From positions 372,001 to 436,000 of the forward strand of contig NC_022584.1 of NCBI RefSeq assembly GCF_000479335.1: a DNA stretch of 64,000 bases. Reading direction: 5' to 3'. Below the pieces are notes generated by a model. That model had not been told where the DNA came from. It ran no database searches and saw only the letters and a list, made by a program, of their open reading frames with translations. Of the stretch, positions 173-10,529 are shown one piece after another. This DNA is from Streptococcus ilei. Lineage in GTDB: Bacteria > Bacillota > Bacilli > Lactobacillales > Streptococcaceae. A program made the position numbers and the translations under genes. The stretch's first letter is position 1, and every line of letters begins with the position of its first letter.

Positions 173-3100
173 ATGAATGGTTTAGTTTTAGGATTGGATA
201 TTGGTATTGCTTCAGTTGGAGTAGGTATTTTAGAGAAAGATAGTGGAAAGATAATCCATGCGAATTCTCGGATTTTCCCAGCTGCAACAGCTGACAATAA
301 TGTTGAGAGAAGGACTAGTAGGCAGGCTAGACGCTTAAATCGCCGGAAAAAACATCGTAGTGTTCGCCTTCATGATCTATTTGAAGAATATGGTTTATTA
401 ACTGATTTTTCTAAGGTTTCAATTAACTTAAATCCTTATCAAATTCGTGTGCAAGGATTGGATAAACGATTAACTAACGAAGAGTTGTTTATAGCCTTAA
501 AGAATATTGTTAAGAGACGTGGTATTAGCTACTTAGATGATGCTTCTGAGGATGGTGGTGCAGTATCATCTGATTACGGTAAGGCAGTTGAAGAGAATAG
601 AAAATTGCTTGCTCAACAAACTCCTGGTCAAATCCAACTAGATCGTTTCGAAAAATATGGTCAGGTTAGAGGAGATTTCACTGTTGTGGAAAATGGTGAA
701 AAACGCAGATTAATTAATGTTTTTTCAACATCTGCTTATAGAAAAGAAGCCGAAAGAATTCTTAGAAAACAGCAGGAATTCAATAATAAGATTACAGAAG
801 GGTTTATAGAAGATTATTTAACAATCCTTACTGGTAAAAGAAAATACTACCATGGGCCTGGAAATGAAAAATCACGGACTGATTATGGAAGGTATACTAC
901 TAAAAAAGATTCTCAAGGTGAGTACATAACCCTAGATAATATTTTTGGTATTTTAATTGGTAAATGTACATTTTATCCTGATGAGTATAGAGCTTCAAAA
1001 GCTTCCTATACTGCCCAAGAGTTCAACTTACTAAATGATTTGAATAATTTAACTGTTCCAACAGAAACTAAGAAACTGAGTGTGGAACAAAAGAAGACAA
1101 TTGTCGAGTATGCGAAGACAGCTAAAACATTAGGAGCTTCAACTCTATTGAAGTACATTGCTAAATTGATTGGTGTGTCAGTTGATCAGATACATGGATA
1201 CCGCATTGATCCTAATGAAAAACCTGAGATGCACACCTTTGAAGTCTATCGGAAAATGCAATCTTTAGAAACAATCAGGGTGGAAGAGTTACCGAGAAAG
1301 GTCATAGATGAGCTTGCTCATATTCTAACCTTAAATACTGAGCGAGAAGGTATAGAAGAAGCGATTAACGCTAAGCTAAAAGATATATTTAGTCAAGATC
1401 AAGTACTTGAATTGGTTCAGTTTAGAAAAAATAATAGCAGTTTATTTAGTAAGGGATGGCATAATTTTTCTCTAAAACTCATGATGGAGTTGATTCCAGA
1501 ATTGTATGAGACTTCAGAAGAACAAATGACAATTCTTACTCGATTAGGCAAACAAAAATCTAAAGAGACATCAAAACGAACCAAGTACATCGATGAAAAA
1601 GAATTAACAGAAGAAATCTATAATCCTGTCGTGGCAAAATCTGTCAGACAAGCTATAAAGATTATCAATGAAGCAACAAAAAGATATGGGATCTTTGATA
1701 ATATCGTTATTGAAATGGCACGTGAAAATAATGAGGAAGATGCAAAGAAAGAGTATATCAAGCGTCAAAAAGCAAATCTAGACGAGAAAAATGCTGCTAT
1801 GGAAAAAGCGGCTTTCCAATACAATGGGAAAAAAGAATTACCGGATAACGTTTTTCATGGACATAAAGAATTAGCAACTAAGATTCGTTTGTGGCATCAA
1901 CAGGGTGAAAAGTGTCTTTACACTGGAAAGAATATTCCAATTTCAGATTTGATTCAAAATCGGTACAAGTATGAAATTGATCATATTTTACCTTTATCTC
2001 TTTCTTTTGATGATAGTTTATCTAATAAAGTCTTGGTACTAGCTACAGCAAACCAAGAAAAGGGACAACGGACACCGTTTCAGGCTTTAGATAGCATGGA
2101 TTACGCATGGTCATACAGAGAGTTCAAATCATATGTAAAAGATTCAAAATTACTGAGCAATAAGAAGAAAGATTATCTTTTAACGGAAGAAGATATTAGT
2201 AAAATTGAGGTGAAACAGAAGTTTATCGAACGAAATTTAGTAGATACTCGTTATTCTTCTCGAGTTGTTTTAAATGCTCTACAAGATTTTTATAAGGAGC
2301 ATCAATTCGATACAACTATTTCAGTGGTTCGTGGACAGTTTACTTCTCAGCTTAGAAGAAAATGGGGGATTGAAAAATCTCGTGAAACCTATCACCATCA
2401 TGCTGTAGATGCTTTGATCATTGCTGCATCTAGTCAATTAAGACTATGGAAAAAACATAATAATCCTCTGATCTCTTATAAAGAAGAGCAATTCGTGGAT
2501 TCAGAAACCGGTGAAATTATTTCAATGAGTGACGATGAATACAAAGAGTTAGTATTCAAAGCACCATATGATCATTTTGTTGATACATTGAAGTCCAAGA
2601 AATTTGAAGATAGCATTCTATTTTCTTATCAAGTAGATTCAAAATATAACCGAAAGATTTCTGATGCAACAATTTACGCAACAAGAAAAGCGAAATTAGA
2701 TAAGGATAAATCGGAAGAAACTTATGTTCTAGGTAAGATTAAAGATATTTATAGTCAAGCGGGATATGATACATTCATTAAAATTTATAATAAAGATAAA
2801 AGTAGATTCTTAATGTATCACAAAGATCCGCAAACATTTGAAAAGGTAATCGAAGAGATTTTAAGAACCTATCCTTCTAAAGAATTGAACGAAAAGAATA
2901 AAGAAGTTCCTTGTAACCCTTTTGAGAAATATAGACAAGAAAATGGACCAATCAGAAAATATAGCAGAAAAGGTAATGGTCCAGAAATTAAAAGCCTGAA
3001 ATATTACGATAATAAGTTAGGTAATCACATTGATATAACACCTAATGAAAGTATGAATCAAGTTGTACTTCAATCACTTAAACCTTGGAGAACAGATGTC

Positions 3101-3556
3101 TTTTTCAACCATCAAACTGAAAAATATGAATTAATGGGATTGAAATACTCTGATTTAAATTTTGAAAAAGGTAGTGGGAAATATAGTATTTCTTTAGAAA
3201 AGTATAATTCTATAAAGATGAATGAGGGTGTTAGTGAGGAGTCTGAATTTAAATTTACACTTTATAAAAATGATTTGATATTAATAAAAGATGCGTTGAC
3301 TAAAGAAGCACAAATATTCCGATACGGTTCCAGAAATGATACTTCGAAACATTATGTTGAGTTAAAGCCTTATGATATGTCAAAATTTGAGGGCGATGAA
3401 AGACTGATTAAAGTTCTTGGAACGGTTGCCAAGGGTGGACGCTGTATTAAAGGGCTAAATAAAAAAGATATTTCCATCTTCAAAGTTAAAACAGATGTCT
3501 TAGGCAATAAACATTTCATCAAAAAAGAGGGTGAAGAACCAAAACTCAAATTTTAA
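173..3556 (+). CDS. cas9: CRISPR-associated endonuclease Cas9 (type II-A, small St1Cas9-like)
   Basis: RNA-guided double-strand DNA endonuclease, 1127 aa, close in length to the S. thermophilus CRISPR1 Cas9 (about 1120 aa) and much shorter than the 1370-aa S. pyogenes type. Visible parts in order: RuvC-I with LDIGIASVG (catalytic Asp9), an arginine-rich bridge helix at about 45-65, a REC lobe, RuvC-II with IVIEMARE (Glu514), HNH with YEIDHILPLS (Asp603-His604), RuvC-III with HHHAVDAL (His743, Asp746), and a C-terminal PAM-interacting region. All catalytic residues are present, so the enzyme should be active. The start is supported by AGGAG at 161-165 with 7-nt spacing; a TATAAT at 147-152 is a possible -10 without a clear -35. 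Tail-to-head with the tracrRNA and cas1. The PAM cannot be read from sequence alone. Confidence 0.97.
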   Translation: MNGLVLGLDIGIASVGVGILEKDSGKIIHANSRIFPAATADNNVERRTSRQARRLNRRKKHRSVRLHDLFEEYGLLTDFSKVSINLNPYQIRVQGLDKRLTNEELFIALKNIVKRRGISYLDDASEDGGAVSSDYGKAVEENRKLLAQQTPGQIQLDRFEKYGQVRGDFTVVENGEKRRLINVFSTSAYRKEAERILRKQQEFNNKITEGFIEDYLTILTGKRKYYHGPGNEKSRTDYGRYTTKKDSQGEYITLDNIFGILIGKCTFYPDEYRASKASYTAQEFNLLNDLNNLTVPTETKKLSVEQKKTIVEYAKTAKTLGASTLLKYIAKLIGVSVDQIHGYRIDPNEKPEMHTFEVYRKMQSLETIRVEELPRKVIDELAHILTLNTEREGIEEAINAKLKDIFSQDQVLELVQFRKNNSSLFSKGWHNFSLKLMMELIPELYETSEEQMTILTRLGKQKSKETSKRTKYIDEKELTEEIYNPVVAKSVRQAIKIINEATKRYGIFDNIVIEMARENNEEDAKKEYIKRQKANLDEKNAAMEKAAFQYNGKKELPDNVFHGHKELATKIRLWHQQGEKCLYTGKNIPISDLIQNRYKYEIDHILPLSLSFDDSLSNKVLVLATANQEKGQRTPFQALDSMDYAWSYREFKSYVKDSKLLSNKKKDYLLTEEDISKIEVKQKFIERNLVDTRYSSRVVLNALQDFYKEHQFDTTISVVRGQFTSQLRRKWGIEKSRETYHHHAVDALIIAASSQLRLWKKHNNPLISYKEEQFVDSETGEIISMSDDEYKELVFKAPYDHFVDTLKSKKFEDSILFSYQVDSKYNRKISDATIYATRKAKLDKDKSEETYVLGKIKDIYSQAGYDTFIKIYNKDKSRFLMYHKDPQTFEKVIEEILRTYPSKELNEKNKEVPCNPFEKYRQENGPIRKYSRKGNGPEIKSLKYYDNKLGNHIDITPNESMNQVVLQSLKPWRTDVFFNHQTEKYELMGLKYSDLNFEKGSGKYSISLEKYNSIKMNEGVSEESEFKFTLYKNDLILIKDALTKEAQIFRYGSRNDTSKHYVELKPYDMSKFEGDERLIKVLGTVAKGGRCIKGLNKKDISIFKVKTDVLGNKHFIKKEGEEPKLKF

Positions 3557-3577: not shown

Positions 3578-3606
3578 TTGCAAACGCTTTTACAATGTAT
3601 TATAAT
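3578..3606 (+). promoter_or_regulatory. Promoter of the tracrRNA
   Basis: TTGCAA at 3578-3583 and a consensus TATAAT at 3601-3606 with 17-bp spacing. It predicts a start near 3613, just before the anti-repeat, so the tracrRNA is transcribed independently of cas9. Confidence 0.85.
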
Positions 3607-3612
3607 ATTAAC

Positions 3613-3717
3613 TGTAAGGGACGCCTTACACAGTTACTTAAATCTTGCAGAAGCTACAAAGATAAGGCTTCATGCCGAATTCAACACCCTGTCATTTATG
3701 GCGGGGTGTTTTCGTTT
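3613..3717 (+). ncRNA. tracrRNA of the type II-A system
   Basis: Trans-activating CRISPR RNA that pairs with each crRNA repeat, recruits RNase III and loads Cas9. The anti-repeat contains ACAGTTACTTAAATCTTG (3629-3646), an 18-base perfect complement to the 3' part of the array repeat, then a bulge and TACAAAGAT, which pairs with the 5' TTTTTGTA of the repeat. It continues into AAGGCTTCATGCC and a terminator stem AACACCC (3683-3689) / GGGTGTT (3704-3710) followed by TTCGTTTT. This layout closely matches the S. thermophilus CRISPR1 tracrRNA as I remember it, including position between cas9 and cas1. The 5' end is inferred from the promoter; a processed form would be shorter. Confidence 0.93.
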
Positions 3718-3736
3718 TGTAAAGAGGATAAAAATA

Positions 3737-4645
3737 ATGACTTGGAGAATTGTACATGTTTGTCAGAGTGAAAAAATGCAATTAAAGTTGGATAATCTTT
3801 TGATTAAGAAGATGGGCGAAGATTATATTATACCCTTGAGCGATATTTCTATCATTGTAGCAGAAGGAGGTGAAACTGTTGTAACCCTAAGATTGTTAAG
3901 TGCCTTAAGTAAGTATAATATTGCCTTAATTGTCTGTGATAATGAGCATTTACCGACAGGGATTTACCATTCACAAAATGGCCATTTTAGAGCCTATAAA
4001 AAGTTACAGGAACAATTGTTGTGGACGCAGGAGCAAAAAGATAAAATATGGCAAATAGTGACCTACTTCAAAATAAATAATCAGCAAGATGTTCTTTCAA
4101 TGTTTGAGAAAAATATCGATTGTATCCAGTTATTAGCAGATTATAAAGACCATATTGAATTTGGGGACAAAACTAATCGTGAGGGTCATGCTGCTAAAGT
4201 TTATTTCAATGAATTATTTGGAAAGAAATTCGTTCGTCTTACCCAACAGGAAACTGATGTTATCAATGCTGGTCTAAATTATGGCTATGCGATTATGAGA
4301 GCGCAGATGGCGCGTATTATTGCTGGGTATGGGCTAAATCCCTTAATCGGAATTTTTCATAAAAACGAATACAATCAATTTAATTTAGTAGATGATTTAA
4401 TGGAACCTTTTAGGCAGATTATTGATGTTTGGGTTTATCAAAATCTACGGGATGAAGAATATTTGAAATACGAGTTTCGTTTAGCCTTAACAGATACACT
4501 GAATGCTAAAATTCGTTATGGAAAAGAAACTTGTTCTGTTACGGTAGCAATGGATAAATATGTTAAGGGTTTTTTAAAATGTATTTCGGATAAGGATACG
4601 AGTAAATTCTACTGTCCGATTGTTTCTAGTGTAGAATGGAGCTGA
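3737..4645 (+). CDS. cas1: CRISPR-associated endonuclease Cas1
   Basis: Integrase subunit of the Cas1-Cas2 spacer acquisition complex, 302 aa. The metal-binding residues of the family are visible: Glu149 in NREGHAAKVYF, His208 in GIFHKNEYN and Glu223 in DLMEPFR. The N-terminal beta domain begins MTWRIVHV. The ATG at 3737 is chosen because a longer open frame upstream runs through the tracrRNA gene; AGAGG lies upstream of 3737. Followed 4 nt later by cas2, with csn2 overlapping cas2, so cas1-cas2-csn2 is one unit. Confidence 0.96.
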   Translation: MTWRIVHVCQSEKMQLKLDNLLIKKMGEDYIIPLSDISIIVAEGGETVVTLRLLSALSKYNIALIVCDNEHLPTGIYHSQNGHFRAYKKLQEQLLWTQEQKDKIWQIVTYFKINNQQDVLSMFEKNIDCIQLLADYKDHIEFGDKTNREGHAAKVYFNELFGKKFVRLTQQETDVINAGLNYGYAIMRAQMARIIAGYGLNPLIGIFHKNEYNQFNLVDDLMEPFRQIIDVWVYQNLRDEEYLKYEFRLALTDTLNAKIRYGKETCSVTVAMDKYVKGFLKCISDKDTSKFYCPIVSSVEWS

Positions 4646-4649
4646 AGAA

Positions 4650-4973
4650 ATGAGGTATGAAGCATTGAGGTTATTGTGTTTTTTTGATCTTCCTATGGAT
4701 ACGAATCAAGAAAAAAGAATCTATCGTAATTTTCGGAAAGATCTAATTGCTAATGGTTTTGAAATGTTGCAGTTTTCTGTTTATTATAGAACGTGTCCCA
4801 ATCGCAGTTTTGCTAGTAAATTCTATAAAAAATTAAGCCAAAGTAATTTACCTAGTGGGAATGTCCGTTTACTAGCGGTTACAGAGAAACAGTTTTCTGA
4901 AATGGTTTTGATCATTGGTGGAAAAACAAAACAAGAAGAAGTAGTCAGTGATAATAAGTTGGTAGTTATATGA
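4650..4973 (+). CDS. cas2: CRISPR-associated protein Cas2
   Basis: Structural partner of Cas1 during spacer integration, 107 aa, typical length. The ferredoxin-like start RLLCFFDLPMDT, with the Asp found in the family, is visible, followed by RIYRNFRKDLIANGF. GGAG of the cas1 end (4638-4641) serves as ribosome binding site. The stop overlaps the csn2 start in ATGA (4970-4973), suggesting coupled translation. Confidence 0.95.
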   Translation: MRYEALRLLCFFDLPMDTNQEKRIYRNFRKDLIANGFEMLQFSVYYRTCPNRSFASKFYKKLSQSNLPSGNVRLLAVTEKQFSEMVLIIGGKTKQEEVVSDNKLVVI

Positions 4974-6013
4974 AAATGAATATTAGTCATCCATACAAGG
5001 ATAATATTACATTGAGTTTTGGACAATTTACCCAAGTTGTTGGCCAAGATCAACAATTAAAGTACTATATTTGGCAAATCCTGTTATGGTATTTTGGAGG
5101 AAAAAAATATAGTGAAGAAGACTTAGTCCTATTCGAACAAAATGAACCTAAAATCTTAATAGACGATACGGTGGTTTCCCGTTCAGAATTTAGGGTTATC
5201 CAACTATCGAATATTAATGATCTAATCGAGCAGATGGAGTATAAAAAAGGAACGATAGCTTATGATTATCTGAAGAAAAAGATTAATACAGTGGAGACGA
5301 TGGAGCAAATTGAAAATATCAATGATCATCTCGATAGGATTTCTTTGCTGTTGAATCAGAATCTGAATCTACAACTAGATGGTATTAACTATCATACAGA
5401 AGCGAAATATTTTAATGCAGACCAATTGATCCAAAAAAATTTTCTGCCCTATTTTGGACAGAACGATAAAAATATATCCTTTGAATTTGTTGACAATAAG
5501 ACAAAGTTTTTATTATTCCTTTCGATGTTGCAAGTAGTGATTACGGATCAATCTGAAAAGGTATTACTTGTTCTCCGAAATATGGATGATTATTTATCTT
5601 ATAAGGAATTTGTTGAGTGTTGTGAACAATTAGAGAGATTAACTAATTATTGTAACATGTTATACACTATTTCATTTCCTTCAAATGAAGGTTATCTTCA
5701 TGTCACGAAAGAAGTATTAGAGGAGATTAATATTGTCTCTGATTACATTGATCATTTTTATTCATTAGAATTTATGTATGAACGTTTTACTGATCAATAT
5801 CCAATAAATCAAATACCTAGTAAACAAGAGTTTTTATCATCTTTAAGGAAGATTGGGCCTTATTTATTTAGTTCTGATATTCTTCATATGAGCTTATCAA
5901 TTGAGGATCAAGTAGCATTGAGAATATTAAACAATTTGTACCAGTATGAAATGAAAATAAAATTCCATATTGAACCAGTCAACCCAATGTTATTGAAGTA
6001 TTTAGAAGAATAG
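4970..6013 (+). CDS. csn2: Type II-A adaptation protein Csn2, long (St CRISPR1) form
   Basis: Csn2 forms a ring on DNA ends and is needed for spacer acquisition in type II-A systems. At 347 aa this is the long subfamily, matching the S. thermophilus CRISPR1 Csn2, whereas the S. pyogenes form is about 220 aa. The N-terminal part has the ATPase-like start (NITLSFGQFTQVVG) and a mid region LLFLSMLQVVITDQ followed by LLVLRNMDDYLSY, resembling a degenerate Walker B strand. The C-terminal about 100 residues are the extension of the long form. It overlaps cas2 by 4 nt and ends 71 bp before the first repeat. Confidence 0.92.
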   Translation: MKMNISHPYKDNITLSFGQFTQVVGQDQQLKYYIWQILLWYFGGKKYSEEDLVLFEQNEPKILIDDTVVSRSEFRVIQLSNINDLIEQMEYKKGTIAYDYLKKKINTVETMEQIENINDHLDRISLLLNQNLNLQLDGINYHTEAKYFNADQLIQKNFLPYFGQNDKNISFEFVDNKTKFLLFLSMLQVVITDQSEKVLLVLRNMDDYLSYKEFVECCEQLERLTNYCNMLYTISFPSNEGYLHVTKEVLEEINIVSDYIDHFYSLEFMYERFTDQYPINQIPSKQEFLSSLRKIGPYLFSSDILHMSLSIEDQVALRILNNLYQYEMKIKFHIEPVNPMLLKYLEE

Positions 6014-6084: not shown

Positions 6085-7637
6085 GTTTTTGTACTCTCAA
6101 GATTTAAGTAACTGTACAACTTTGTCATATTTCCCAGTTTAGAACCTGTGTTTTTGTACTCTCAAGATTTAAGTAACTGTACAACCCTTGCGACTGTAGG
6201 AGACGACCAGCCTTTGTTTTTGTACTCTCAAGATTTAAGTAACTGTACAACTAAAAATCAATTCTTTTAGATCATCACTCAGTTTTTGTACTCTCAAGAT
6301 TTAAGTAACTGTACAACCGTAGCGGACAGCTTCCGATTATTGGAATTGTTTTTGTACTCTCAAGATTTAAGTAACTGTACAACTGAATTTATCGGTGACC
6401 GTGTGTTGATATAGTTTTTGTACTCTCAAGATTTAAGTAACTGTACAACATGAGGAAAGATGAATGAAAATCACACAAGGTTTTTGTACTCTCAAGATTT
6501 AAGTAACTGTACAACTATGCTTGAACTTGCTAAGGCCTACAAGCTGTTTTTGTACTCTCAAGATTTAAGTAACTGTACAACAGAGGGTATTTTTGGCAGA
6601 ATTATAAATCTGTTTTTGTACTCTCAAGATTTAAGTAACTGTACAACCGAAAGGGCAAAGAATGAATTGATGCGATTGTTTTTGTACTCTCAAGATTTAA
6701 GTAACTGTACAACGGGTCTTTATGATAGTATCCATGGTCTGGAGTTTTTGTACTCTCAAGATTTAAGTAACTGTACAACGAACCTGGACGATGGTGTCTT
6801 TGTTGATAAGTTTTTGTACTCTCAAGATTTAAGTAACTGTACAACATATCGTCCATGTCTGGGATAGGCCCGCTGTTTTTGTACTCTCAAGATTTAAGTA
6901 ACTGTACAACCAACACTGACGTACTGTCCAGCCGATATCTGTTTTTGTACTCTCAAGATTTAAGTAACTGTACAACTCATAAATTATCAAATTGAACTTC
7001 TCTTACTGTTTTTGTACTCTCAAGATTTAAGTAACTGTACAACACGTTGTTTCTCACCACGTTTCGAACCTTTGTTTTTGTACTCTCAAGATTTAAGTAA
7101 CTGTACAACAAGCTACTGCGATATTAAAGACTGGAATGTGTTTTTGTACTCTCAAGATTTAAGTAACTGTACAACGAAAGCGTCTCAGGACGCTTAAACG
7201 ACTTGGTTTTTGTACTCTCAAGATTTAAGTAACTGTACAACTAACGTATAGCGGAGGTTGAAGGCAAGCTGTTTTTGTACTCTCAAGATTTAAGTAACTG
7301 TACAACTTTAACGTAGCTGAAAGCGGATGGGAAAGCGTTTTTGTACTCTCAAGATTTAAGTAACTGTACAACCTAAAGGCTTCGGAGACTTTGAAGCATC
7401 ACTGTTTTTGTACTCTCAAGATTTAAGTAACTGTACAACAGGACGCAAGCTACACGTATCTCCAGAGTTGTTTTTGTACTCTCAAGATTTAAGTAACTGT
7501 ACAACTTTACAGCCGGACAAGAAATTAAGGCCGGAGTTTTTGTACTCTCAAGATTTAAGTAACTGTACAACTCGCATAGACAATATAACGAGTACTGTCG
7601 AGTTTCTGTACTCTCAAGATTTAAGTAAGTGTACAAC
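6085..7637 (+). CRISPR. Type II-A CRISPR array, 24 repeats and 23 spacers
   Basis: 36-bp repeat beginning GTTTTTGTACTCTCAAG and ending ATTTAAGTAACTGTACAAC, which I recognise as the S. thermophilus CRISPR1 repeat. Repeat starts: 6085, 6150, 6216, 6282, 6348, 6414, 6480, 6546, 6612, 6678, 6744, 6810, 6875, 6941, 7008, 7074, 7140, 7206, 7271, 7337, 7404, 7470, 7536, 7602. Spacers are mostly 30 bp, with 29-bp (spacers 1, 12, 18) and 31-bp (14, 20) exceptions. The first 23 repeats are identical; the last (7602-7637) has two substitutions (position 5 T to C, position 29 C to G), marking the leader-distal end. All spacers look distinct. Protospacer sources cannot be assigned by reading. Confidence 0.99.
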
Positions 7638-7674
7638 TGAATGCGAGGGAATGGAAGTTGAGGAGGTTGAGTTA

Positions 7675-7710
7675 GTTTTAGAGCTGTGTTGTTTCGAATG
7701 GTCCCAAAAC
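7675..7710 (+). repeat. Relic CRISPR repeat of a second type II-A family (Spy/St-CRISPR3 type)
   Basis: 36 bases beginning GTTTTAGAGCTGTGTTG and ending TTTCGAATGGTCCCAAAAC. From memory this differs at one base from the S. thermophilus CRISPR3 / S. mutans repeat and shares its CCCAAAAC end with the S. pyogenes repeat. It is unrelated to the active array, whose last repeat ends 37 bp upstream. No cas9 or tracrRNA of that family is visible in the window, so it looks like a remnant. Confidence 0.85.
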
Positions 7711-7760
7711 TATTATTTGTATGATATAACAGAATATTTAAAAAAATGAAGGGGTTTTCT

Positions 7761-8048
7761 ATGGAGAGTGATGTGTTTTTTGATTATTTTTTAAGATCAC
7801 TTAGGTTTTATTTTCGTGATAGGTGTAAGGATATTGGATTTATAAAGTTTTTTAAAGATGAAAATAATTGTTTTATTACTATAGAGGATTATGTTTTGGA
7901 ATCATTTGTAGTATTGTCAAATATTTTGAGTAAGGATAGGATTGTGTTTACTTGTGGAATTATTTATAGTAAGGGGGTAGTTACTGGAGTAGAAGTATAT
8001 ATGAATGTATTAGAGTTAGAAAGATTAAATAAATTGTATAAGATATAG
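7761..8048 (+). CDS. Small hypothetical protein between two relic CRISPR repeats
   Basis: 95 aa, not recognised. The start MESDVFFDYF is chosen because GAAGGGG (7748-7754) sits 6 nt upstream; an in-frame ATG at 7746 lies in that ribosome binding site. The protein is AT-rich in codon use, mildly aromatic (several FF/YF pairs), without a signal peptide or clear membrane segment, and reads as a compact soluble alpha/beta protein. It lies wholly inside the 413-bp interval between the two relic repeats, on the same strand as the cas genes. A 32-codon frame reading through the relic repeat ends in an ATGA overlap with 7746, but I do not think it is a gene. An anti-CRISPR, an immunity protein or an orphan are all possible; none is supported by homology I can see. 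Confidence 0.55.
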   Translation: MESDVFFDYFLRSLRFYFRDRCKDIGFIKFFKDENNCFITIEDYVLESFVVLSNILSKDRIVFTCGIIYSKGVVTGVEVYMNVLELERLNKLYKI

Positions 8049-8123
8049 TTTTGATGAATATTAAAAAACATAAGGGTATTTATCTACGTGGGATGTGTGG
8101 AGTGATAGGATTAATGTTTCCTA

Positions 8124-8159
8124 GTTATAGAACTCTGTTGTTTTGAATGGACCCAAATA
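8124..8159 (+). repeat. Degenerate relic CRISPR repeat (second family)
   Basis: 36 bases containing CTGTTGTTTTGAATGG and ACCCAAA. Aligned without gaps to the relic at 7675-7710 it matches at 29 of 36 positions, including the GTTGTTT-GAATGG core. The decay fits a leader-distal terminal repeat or a decayed copy. No further copy follows before 8300. Confidence 0.7.
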
Positions 8160-8249
8160 CCTTCAATAATTTGAGTACTCAGCATTCTCTATTCCCCGTA
8201 GCCATTTATTGTTTTTTTAAGCTTTTATTGTTACAATATCCATATAGAC

Positions 8250-8275
8250 AAAAAGACTGGATTTCCAGCCTTTTT
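8250..8275 (+). terminator. Weak terminator-like hairpin ahead of the PrsW-like gene
   Basis: AAAAAGACTGG-ATTT-CCAGCCTTTTT, a stem with one A-C mismatch on the plus strand followed by a T run. It closes the CRISPR/relic region or forms part of the leader of the next gene. Confidence 0.45.
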
Positions 8276-8299
8276 AATTGTTTTAAAGAAAGGTTTTTT

Positions 8300-9112
8300 A
8301 TGAAACGCAAATCGATTTTGTTTCTATTTTTATTCTTGCTCTCGATTGGTCTGGCCTATGAGACGCAGTCTATCACAGCTGGTTGGATGACTGGATCCCA
8401 GTATGGGATCATTGGTATCTCTGTCCTCTTGCTTCTAGTATACGCGATTCCTGCTGTTTGGGCTCTCTTTCATTTCGCGAAGAAGTGGAAGTTGTCCTGG
8501 ATTCCGGTTCTTTTTTCTCTCCTAGGTGGGGGCTTTATCGCAGGTTGGTTATCTAGTTTTGCCAATACCTATTTCCATGAGATGATTCAAGCGGTAGCGC
8601 CAAATAGCGATTTTTGGAACCAGTATGAGAGTGCCATCGCAGGACCACTCTTTGAGGAACCCTTCAAGTTGATTCCGATCTTCTTTGTCCTCTACTTGTT
8701 CAATGTACGTAGGATCAAATCCATCTTCCTTTTAGCGATTGCATCTGGTCTTGGTTTCCAGATTGTGGAGGACTTTGCCTATATCCGTCAAGACATGCCA
8801 GAAGGCTTCTCATACGCAGTATCTGGTATCCTAGGTCGGATTATGAATGGGGTCGTATCACACTGGGTCTACACAGCCCTCTTCATGGTGGGTCTCTACT
8901 TGATCCTTCAAGCGACAAAAGGTCGCAAGGAGTTGATGCTGACGGGTTGGTTCTATTTTATTTCTGGCTTTGGCCTTCACTTTGTCGGCAATTCACCATT
9001 TGGCCAAATCGAGACAGAACTCCCTCTCGCCATTCCATTCTTGACAGCAGTAGGACTCTTCTTGATTTATCAAGCCTACCTCACTGTCCAAAGTCTGGAC
9101 CAAGGAAATTAA
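8300..9112 (+). CDS. PrsW-family intramembrane metalloprotease-like protein
   Basis: 270 aa, multi-pass membrane protein (hydrophobic segments at about 5-22, 35-55, 70-90, 122-140 and several in the C-terminal half). It carries the PrsW / glutamic-type signature: FEEPFK (Glu119-Glu120), VEDFAYIR (Glu157) and HWVYTALF (His188). In Bacillus subtilis PrsW makes the site-1 cut in the anti-sigma factor RsiW; no anti-sigma pair is visible here, so the substrate is unknown. The start is ATG 8300 with AGAAAGG upstream; a longer frame from 8147 begins inside a relic CRISPR repeat and is not credible. Convergent with mnmE. Confidence 0.85.
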   Translation: MKRKSILFLFLFLLSIGLAYETQSITAGWMTGSQYGIIGISVLLLLVYAIPAVWALFHFAKKWKLSWIPVLFSLLGGGFIAGWLSSFANTYFHEMIQAVAPNSDFWNQYESAIAGPLFEEPFKLIPIFFVLYLFNVRRIKSIFLLAIASGLGFQIVEDFAYIRQDMPEGFSYAVSGILGRIMNGVVSHWVYTALFMVGLYLILQATKGRKELMLTGWFYFISGFGLHFVGNSPFGQIETELPLAIPFLTAVGLFLIYQAYLTVQSLDQGN

Positions 9113-9155: not shown

Positions 9156-10529
9156 TTATTTTCCAAGACAGAATTGACTGAAGAGTTGGGTGATGAGCTC
9201 GTCTGGTGCAGCATCTCCTGTGATTTCTCCGAGAATTTCCCAAGTGCGGGTCAGATCGACTTGAAGCAGGTCCACTGGCATGCCCATAGCCAGGCCTTCG
9301 TTAACTGCTTGGAGGCTTTCAACGGCTTTCTCAATGAGAGAGATGTGGCGGGCATTGGAGAGGTAAGTAGCATCTTGCTCTACTAAGCCAGCATTTTCAA
9401 AGAAGAGGGCATTAATACGGTCTTCGATTTGATCGATATTTTGATTTTTCAGAACCGAAATCTTGATGTAATCTTCTGGCAGTTGGTCGATTTCAATCTT
9501 CTCTGGGAGATCGACCTTGTTGAGGAGAATGATGCGGTTGCTGTCTTGTGAGATCTCAAGGAGCTGCCGGTCTTGATCAGTCAGAGGCTCGCTAGCATTG
9601 AGAACCAGGAGGACCAGATCAGCTTCTTTGAGGGCTTTCCGAGAGCGTTCCACACCAATGCGTTCGACGATATCCTCTGTCTCCCGGATACCGGCTGTAT
9701 CGACCAGCTTGAGGGGAACACCATTGATATTGACGTATTCCTCGATGACGTCACGGGTCGTCCCTTCGATATCGGTCACGATGGCTTTTTCCTCGCGCAG
9801 GAGGTTGTTCAGAAGGCTAGACTTGCCGACATTTGGTCGCCCGATGATAGCAGTAGAAATCCCCTCGCGAAGAATCTTACCACGGCGAGCTGTCTTGAGG
9901 AGGTTGGTCAAGAGGGCTTCAAACTCAGTGGTCTTTTCGCGGATGATCTCAGTGGTTGCTTCCTCGACATCGTCGTACTCAGGATAGTCGATGTTGACTT
10001 CGACCTGAGCCAGAGTATTGAGGATCTCTTGGCGCGTGTTGTTGATGAGATCAGATAGGGATCCATCCAACTGTTTGACTGCGATATTCATAGCCTTGTC
10101 GGTCTTGGCGCGGATAATATCCATGACCGCCTCAGCCTGGGTCAAATCGACACGACCATTCAAGAAGGCCCGCTTGGTAAATTCACCAGGCTCAGCTAAT
10201 CGAGCGCCTTCGCGAATCACCAATTGCAGGATTTCGTTGGTCACCGCAATCCCACCGTGGGTATTGATCTCGATGATATCTTCTCGAGTGAAGGTCTTAG
10301 GAGAGCGCATAGCACCGACCATGACTTCATCCAGAATCTCATCCTTATCTGGATCTACGATGTGGCCGTAGTTGAGGGTGTGGCTGGCCACGTTGCTTAA
10401 ATCTTTTCCTTTAAAGATCTTTTGTGCAATTTTAAAGCTGTCTGTCCCGCTTAGGCGGACAATCCCGATTGCTCCCTCACCGAGTGGCGTCGAGATAGCA
10501 GCGATGGTATCAAATTCTCTAGTAATCAT
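9156..10529 (-). CDS. mnmE: tRNA modification GTPase MnmE
   Basis: With MnmG it installs the 5-carboxymethylaminomethyl group on U34 of tRNAs reading NNA/NNG codons. 457 aa, normal length. Visible: the N-terminal folate-binding domain ([23 protein letters not shown]), a helical domain, an inserted G domain with [12 protein letters not shown] (P loop, about 224-235), DTAG and NKVD, and the C-terminal FCLGK carrying the CxGK cysteine typical of the family. Single gene, divergent from rpiA. Confidence 0.97.

Follow-up and report, generated by a model that had tools for sequence, protein, structure and literature searches.

The window, a stretch of 64,000 nucleotides of Streptococcus ilei DNA, contains near its left end a type II-A CRISPR-Cas locus of the St1 (CRISPR1) type, followed by two repeats of a different, Spy/Sth3 class that frame a 413-bp unit with a small open reading frame. 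The features are as follows.

173..3556, plus strand: cas9 of the St1 (CRISPR1)-type II-A locus now present (NCBIfam TIGR01865, 701 bits; Pfam Cas9 WED, HNH and PI2)
3737..4645, plus strand: cas1 (TIGR03639, 320 bits)
4650..4973, plus strand: cas2 (TIGR01573, 68 bits)
4970..6013, plus strand: csn2 of the St (long) subfamily (PF16813, 300 bits)
6085..7637, plus strand: St1-type array of 24 repeats, the last one degenerate, with spacers of 29-31 nt (repeat finding)
7638..7674, plus strand: junction of 37 nt from the last St1-type repeat to the Spy-type repeat (sequence)
7675..7710, plus strand: near-intact repeat of the Spy/Sth3 class that forms the left border of the unit (Rfam RF01335, 56.2 bits)
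7711..8123, plus strand: plasmid-derived unit of 413 bp, candidate giant spacer (88.9% match to NC_015876.1; borders in repeat-bordered copies)
7761..8048, plus strand: ORF of 95 aa, probable immunity protein (putative; intact in 29/29 close copies, AF2 model, partner pairing)
8124..8159, plus strand: right Spy-class repeat, degenerate, terminal repeat of the old array (29/36 matches)
8300..9112, plus strand: prsW-like protease gene, right flank of the site (PF13367, 68 bits on ORF 8147-9112; site survey)
9156..10529, minus strand: mnmE candidate, right flank of the site (ORF of 457 aa)

The last of these we take to be mnmE, as had been assumed earlier. The gap between cas9 and cas1 (3590-3725) resembles an St1-type tracrRNA, with an anti-repeat and a terminator hairpin judged by eye; Rfam gave no match to it at the gathering score. 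No Spy-type remains were found upstream of the window cas9. A close version of the 37-nt junction is present at L039 in genome G220, where one St1-type repeat was found.

The original prediction had assigned the two 36-mers to the Spy/Sth3 class of type II-A repeats, and both Rfam and a mismatch scan agree. Positions 7675-7710 score 56.2 bits with Rfam CRISPR-DR22, whose gathering score is 50. In the mismatch scan the two Spy/Sth3-class 36-mers have 0 and 7 mismatches, and the next best place in the 64 kb has 14 (plus strand) or 15 (minus strand); since none of 40 shuffles of the window gave fewer than 13, neither repeat is due to chance. As predicted, the second repeat agrees with the first at 29 of 36 positions. 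The two families had been described as fused tail to tail, but both Spy-type repeats read in the direction of the St1-type array, and the arrangement is head to tail. Overlooked at the time were the 413 bp between the repeats, which form a single unit that runs from repeat to repeat in other genomes too.

No further copy of the segment was found in the same genome, where the remaining matches are short (15-26 bases, E 1.8 or worse). When 284 genomes of the genus were searched with the DNA, 28 close matches came up; six of them start exactly at base 1 of the left repeat and stop exactly two bases short of the right repeat's end (query 36-518). A protein search of the 284 genomes located the 95-aa gene at 29 close places (79-100% identity) in 26 genomes, with distant matches in four more. 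All 29 places were taken with their flanks and their borders were scored. At least one Spy-type repeat borders the unit at 21 of them: 11 have a repeat on both sides (the window and L038-L047; 0-4 mismatches on the left, 1-7 on the right), seven combine a right repeat with a tracrRNA anti-repeat hybrid on the left that differs from the repeat at 7-10 positions (L048-L052, L054, L055), and three have a plasmid-type left side and a right repeat (L053, L057, L058). The other eight (L056, L059-L064, L107) have no repeat and lie on plasmid-like contigs or elsewhere on the chromosome. The segment thus does occur in CRISPR context, and wide dispersal as a non-CRISPR repeat, the counter-case named in the original prediction, holds only for those eight of the 29 copies. 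Nor are the two repeats bare relics: they frame a plasmid-derived gene segment that is kept across species and at several chromosomal sites, and its ORF is intact in all 29 close copies.

In genome G143 (S. parasanguinis S32), the array of an intact Spy-type locus has the unit as its last interval. This array has 31 repeats, and the locus encodes a 1366-aa SpyCas9-like Cas9, Cas1, Cas2 and a short Csn2; here, as in the window, a copy of the system's repeat stands on either side of the unit. With one near-intact and one degenerate repeat enclosing a small gene, the arrangement resembles that of creA/creT. It also resembles the solitary repeat units of phages (PMC10651486), and the flanking repeats might then give rise to a guide-like RNA acting on the ORF as a regulator or on the CRISPR system as an inhibitor. 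We regard such a CreTA-like or Racr-like RNA element as very improbable, given that the flanking repeats are simply the last two of the G143 array, that many copies have lost one repeat, and that the region has no excess of promoter-like sequences (3 found against 4.0 expected).

The hybrid left borders resemble the G143 locus at another point. There, the tracrRNA strand upstream of cas9 reads ...AAGCCTTATTTTAACTTGC/TGTGTTGTTTCGAATAACCCC..., and at L048-L051, L054 and L055 a closely similar tracrRNA tail leads into TGTGTTGTTTCGAATGG... or a close variant and from there directly into the unit. A tracrRNA tail joined to the unit is the expected product of recombination between the anti-repeat and the last repeat, deleting all between. 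L047, L052 and L106 show a like junction with another tracrRNA-like version; L047 and L106 retain one ordinary 30-nt spacer, and L106 is without the unit. To judge from their junctions, the nine scars fit deletion by recombination between tracrRNA anti-repeat and array repeat, and they point to a definite route by which entire II-A loci may disappear; the Spy-type locus would have been lost in most of these lineages. L106, in genome G032, consists of the tracrRNA anti-repeat, a 30-nt spacer and one repeat, ~490-390 bp upstream of prsW, and has the look of a locus reduced to one spacer. To the left of the unit at L048-L051, L054 and L055, the orphan tracrRNA-like sequence faces away from the unit, whose left end contains the partner promoter region on plasmids and could drive it; this role is putative.

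The chromosomal site, from rplS/tRNA-Arg to prsW-mnmE, was inspected in all 25 genomes with prsW of at least 81% identity, some of the loci lying on short contigs (L053, L099, L101). In the present genome it starts just left of window base 1 (L095), after rplS and a tRNA-Arg-like gene recognised by eye. A Spy-type trace is present in 18 of the 25 genomes: 14 have the unit, G279 a degenerate repeat (9 mismatches), G149 and G141 a solo repeat, and G032 the scar. An St1-type trace is present in four, as arrays in the window and G178 (24 and 35 repeats) and as relics in G220 and G142, the window and G220 being counted in both sets. Neither trace was found at the site in G006, G008, G224, G140 and G215 (5/25). 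These counts bear out the view of the site as a hot spot of type II-A turnover, which may be because the tRNA-Arg-like gene is a common integration point. A full Spy-type locus in a related strain, proposed as the supporting observation, exists in one of the 25 genomes, that of S. parasanguinis S32. With the Spy-type traces, this complete locus indicates that a Spy-type locus probably stood at the window site; an St1-type locus now stands in its place in this genome. The claim of a lost or replaced Spy-type locus holds to that extent, and what falls is the reading of the repeats as mere leftovers of the lost array. A lone St1-type repeat with 3 mismatches lies ~1.3 kb upstream of prsW at L101 (G142), possibly a relic of an St1-type locus.

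Trailer sequences bear on how the unit spread. Seven array loci without the unit have the site-B trailer common to four of the unit scars, and the site-C trailer is common to L125 and L055. Since the right repeat and trailer follow the site and not the unit, the unit most likely moved between arrays; bounded by repeats, it would probably have passed between arrays at several chromosomal sites through recombination at the repeats in these competent streptococci. At L103 (G149) and L104 (G141) the flanks are those of L040, L042-L044 and L046, but one repeat stands alone between them and the unit is absent, which would fit either its loss in the manner of a spacer or a locus that never acquired it. 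In a tree of the copies, plasmid and repeat-bordered copies are intermixed and the latter form no separate clade. Through this mosaic pattern, recombination blurs whether there was one capture or several.

The gene might also have spread as a mobile cassette, by plasmid integration or by a recombinase that targets CRISPR repeats, its link with CRISPR being secondary. The eight repeat-free copies on plasmid-like contigs or at other chromosomal places are in line with this, as are the common neighbour ORFs, of the integrated-element kind, at L057, L061 and L063. We nevertheless consider it quite improbable, because the unit contains no recombinase gene, no end repeats were noticed, 21 of the 29 copies end at Spy-type repeats or anti-repeats, and the right repeat and trailer belong to the site. 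The shared ORF clusters (c24, c25, c30, c31) around these three copies without a left repeat may reflect recombination between the unit and an integrated element.

The length of the unit is exceptional among Spy-type intervals. The control set comprised 37 loci with Spy-type repeats (21 + 16), one having a single repeat, picked among the DNA-search matches to the segment and not at random. Fourteen intervals of 6.1-6.8 kb were set aside as tracrRNA anti-repeats (recognised as such in L038), and a 485-bp interval in L140 that consists of Ns was dropped. Among the 852 sequenced array intervals, 850 measure 28-32 nt; the two long ones are this unit (413 nt, L038) and a 534-bp interval in L125 (G171). 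By length, then, the unit is no typical spacer.

By origin it resembles one. All 413 bp match positions 3658-4072 of NC_015876.1 (pDRPIS7493, S. pseudopneumoniae) at 88.9%, the plasmid version being 416 bp long, and a second plasmid, NZ_CP134148.1, matches bases 1-355. The unit thus comes from a mobile element. The 21 repeat-bordered copies, each with 400-800 bp of flank, were compared with the plasmid by local BLAST. Plasmid homology ends on the right at plasmid position 4069-4072 in 21/21 copies, and on the left at 3656-3661 in 17/21; of the four left-end exceptions, L039 begins at 3691 because bases are deleted on its left, and the three copies with a plasmid-type left side stay homologous beyond the border. 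As in the archaeal pseudo-spacer SiL-E1, plasmid homology reaches the repeats with no bases left unaccounted for.

The PAM is NGGNG for the S. thermophilus CRISPR3 system and NGG for SpyCas9. On the plasmid, outward NGGNG motifs are flush with both ends of the unit. Past the right end follows TGGAG (L094) or TGGCG (L060, L062), so that a presumed PAM, of the type given for these systems, lies flush 3' of the protospacer in 3/3 records that continue past the end; the three represent one plasmid type and hence one observation. At the left end, 12 contexts lack a left repeat; their minus-strand sequence is AGGAG in 11 and AGGAA in the remaining one, and the AGGAG doubles as the Shine-Dalgarno sequence of the partner gene. 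Per base, NGGNG occurs on pDRPIS7493 at frequencies of 0.0135 (plus strand) and 0.0047 (minus strand), and the chance of flush motifs at both ends is ~6e-5 for NGGNG and ~0.001 for NGG alone. With one plasmid type on the right and a Shine-Dalgarno sequence on the left, the PAM evidence is strong but not independent.

These ends suggest how the fragment of a pDRPIS7493-like plasmid may have come to lie between two Spy-type II-A repeats as the oldest, trailer-end spacer. Most likely, Cas9, Cas1-Cas2 and Csn2 would have captured a long prespacer, each end trimmed flush to an outward NGGNG, and integration would have duplicated the repeat as with a normal spacer. We rank this first because the repeat is duplicated, a PAM stands on the correct side and a second one faces outward on the left. 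Counted against it are the mosaic tree, the three plasmid-type left sides, the lack of a match of more than 19 nt between the ordinary spacers tested and the four plasmids compared, and the fact that, to our knowledge, no Cas1-Cas2 integrates 400-bp prespacers in vivo.

In second place we put homologous recombination, which is unlikely: two ordinary, collinear spacers of ~30 nt from one plasmid, ~350 bp apart, would have allowed a double crossover with the plasmid that swapped in the intervening DNA for the repeat between them. Such an event yields the identical flush repeat-unit-repeat structure without a long prespacer, and the mosaic copies imply that unit copies do recombine. Recombination is also one of the two options offered for the archaeal case in the pertinent part of Jaubert et al. 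(PMC3718332). The right-hand spacer would have its correct PAM, but for a collinear left one the NGGNG would have to lie ~30 nt into the unit, and the plasmid sequence there is TTTAA. The left-end NGGNG itself points leftward and would select a spacer in inverted orientation. Among the 731 ordinary spacers tested, none was of the collinear kind, and none matched the four plasmids compared over more than 19 nt. Spacer 4 of the Spy-type array L120 has 18 bases identical to L094 4076-4093, adjoining the right end of the unit on pDRPIS7493; with 7 mismatches over 30 and no NGG beside it, the similarity is chance or an old target.

The unit includes one small gene in full, from its Shine-Dalgarno sequence (AAGGGG) and start onward, and it ends just before the Shine-Dalgarno sequence of a divergent gene for a secreted protein. 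The 95-aa protein has no match in Pfam, NCBIfam or PADLOC and no sequence relative in the PDB, and its best PHROG match is at E 0.049. AF2 predicts an alpha-beta-beta-alpha-beta-beta-alpha fold (pLDDT 89.9), which gives no lead to function. Selection was assessed in the 21 repeat-bordered copies. There are no gap runs in the 288 coding columns, against 12 distinct ones in ~120 non-coding columns, a few of which may be alignment effects at the left edge. No stops were observed in the ORF, against 2.2-7.5 expected (P 0.02-0.12 with transition bias, weak by itself; ~0.0005 without bias, by arithmetic). dN/dS is high, 0.68 over the 21 copies and 0.91 among the 11 with both repeats. The reading frame is kept and the protein sequence varies.

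On plasmids, the 95-aa gene is divergent from a gene for a ~152-aa protein whose start resembles a signal peptide by eye. With a cut-off of E 1, relatives of the latter, some of them weak, occur in 19 plasmid records, 17 of which are smaller than 10 kb. On four more distant plasmids with both genes in view, the secreted gene is divergent from a gene for 89-107 aa, 51-69 bp off; these small partners are at best weakly similar to the window protein, and the Bacillus one undetectably so. In G251 the secreted gene is divergent from an 86-aa relative that is 30% identical to the 95-aa protein. The protein database contains 288 matches to the 95-aa family and 11 to the partner. At E 1e-8, the secreted partner gene was found in 6 of the 284 genomes; the G001 copy has a stop and that of G215 is a broken remnant. 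None of the six is among the 21 genomes with repeat-bordered copies, where the 95-aa genes therefore look like orphans.

By analogy, the divergent pair has the layout of a secreted, putative bacteriocin and its immunity gene. The gene pairing, on which this assignment is built, suggests that the 95-aa product most likely guards the cell against the plasmid-borne, secreted bacteriocin-like protein, and such protection would account for the intact reading frame. It is somewhat unlikely that the protein instead serves in plasmid copy control or exclusion, or as an anti-CRISPR, with the same origin of the unit. The function is putative and the fold points to none, but in each plasmid opened with both genes in view the neighbour is the divergent secreted protein and not rep, and the 95-aa gene survives in genomes in which no plasmid copy was found. 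We therefore favour, with moderate confidence, the reading of 7711-8123 as a giant spacer that carries a probable bacteriocin-immunity gene from a pDRPIS7493-like plasmid and was kept while its cas locus was lost or replaced.

Like ordinary type II-A spacers, the unit is foreign and repeat-bordered, has a PAM on its right side in the right orientation, and at two loci looks as if it had been lost together with one repeat; unlike them, it is ~14 times longer, has a PAM-like motif at both ends and codes for a protein. Integron gene cassettes are single genes between repeated borders that move between arrays. The unit differs from these in that it has no integrase, its borders are CRISPR repeats and its movement would have been by homologous recombination. 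Closer precedents come from archaea. In the part of Jaubert et al. 2013 (PMC3718332) devoted to it, the SiL-E1 pseudo-spacer of Sulfolobus islandicus LAL14/1 is a plasmid-derived segment exactly between two CRISPR repeats, of 1.9 kb and with five ORFs, associated with subtype I-A cas genes and described from one strain only; faulty protospacer processing or recombination is proposed there. The unit shares with it the plasmid origin, homology up to the repeats and ORF content, whereas it is bacterial, of type II-A, 413 bp long with one intact gene, repeat-bordered in 21 genomes, provided with a PAM-like motif at both ends and able to outlive its locus. CRISPR locus F of S. solfataricus has an 899-bp pNOB8-like insert (PMC4390879), again a plasmid-like fragment between two repeats, but archaeal, with a partial plasmid match and no conserved gene reported in the section on that locus. 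Plasmid-derived giant intervals are thus already known in archaea; a bacterial, conserved, gene-keeping form was not found in the literature searched. For the gene pair, the class III bacteriocins encoded by plasmids, dysgalacticin with its adjacent immunity gene (DysI) and streptococcin A-M57, as outlined in PMC8308785, offer a likeness by description: a plasmid-encoded secreted protein and, for dysgalacticin, an adjacent immunity gene. The secreted protein here is, in contrast, ~150 aa long and unstudied, and the genes are divergent.

If the capture is true, DNA of gene size can enter an array during adaptation and its gene be retained by the host; surveys restricted to spacers of ~30 nt would miss this way of gaining genes. 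Integration of long prespacers by II-A Cas1-Cas2/Csn2, with a PAM-trimmed end on each side, can now be tested, as can orphan bacteriocin immunity acquired through a CRISPR array. More tentatively, and with rather less than even expectation, II-A arrays might bank whole functional genes: a giant spacer with two PAM-trimmed ends would have supplied streptococci with the immunity gene of a plasmid-borne bacteriocin but not its toxin, the same locus having once given both RNA-guided and protein protection against one plasmid and the repeats serving as the borders of a mobile cassette; the 534-bp interval of G171 would then be a second case.

That interval was matched in G171 alone among the 284 genomes, and no plasmid or phage source was found for it. 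It occupies 6296-6829 of L125 (minus strand) between two Spy-type repeats, is the last, trailer-end interval of its array, and holds an intact ORF of ~100 aa with a hydrophobic start.
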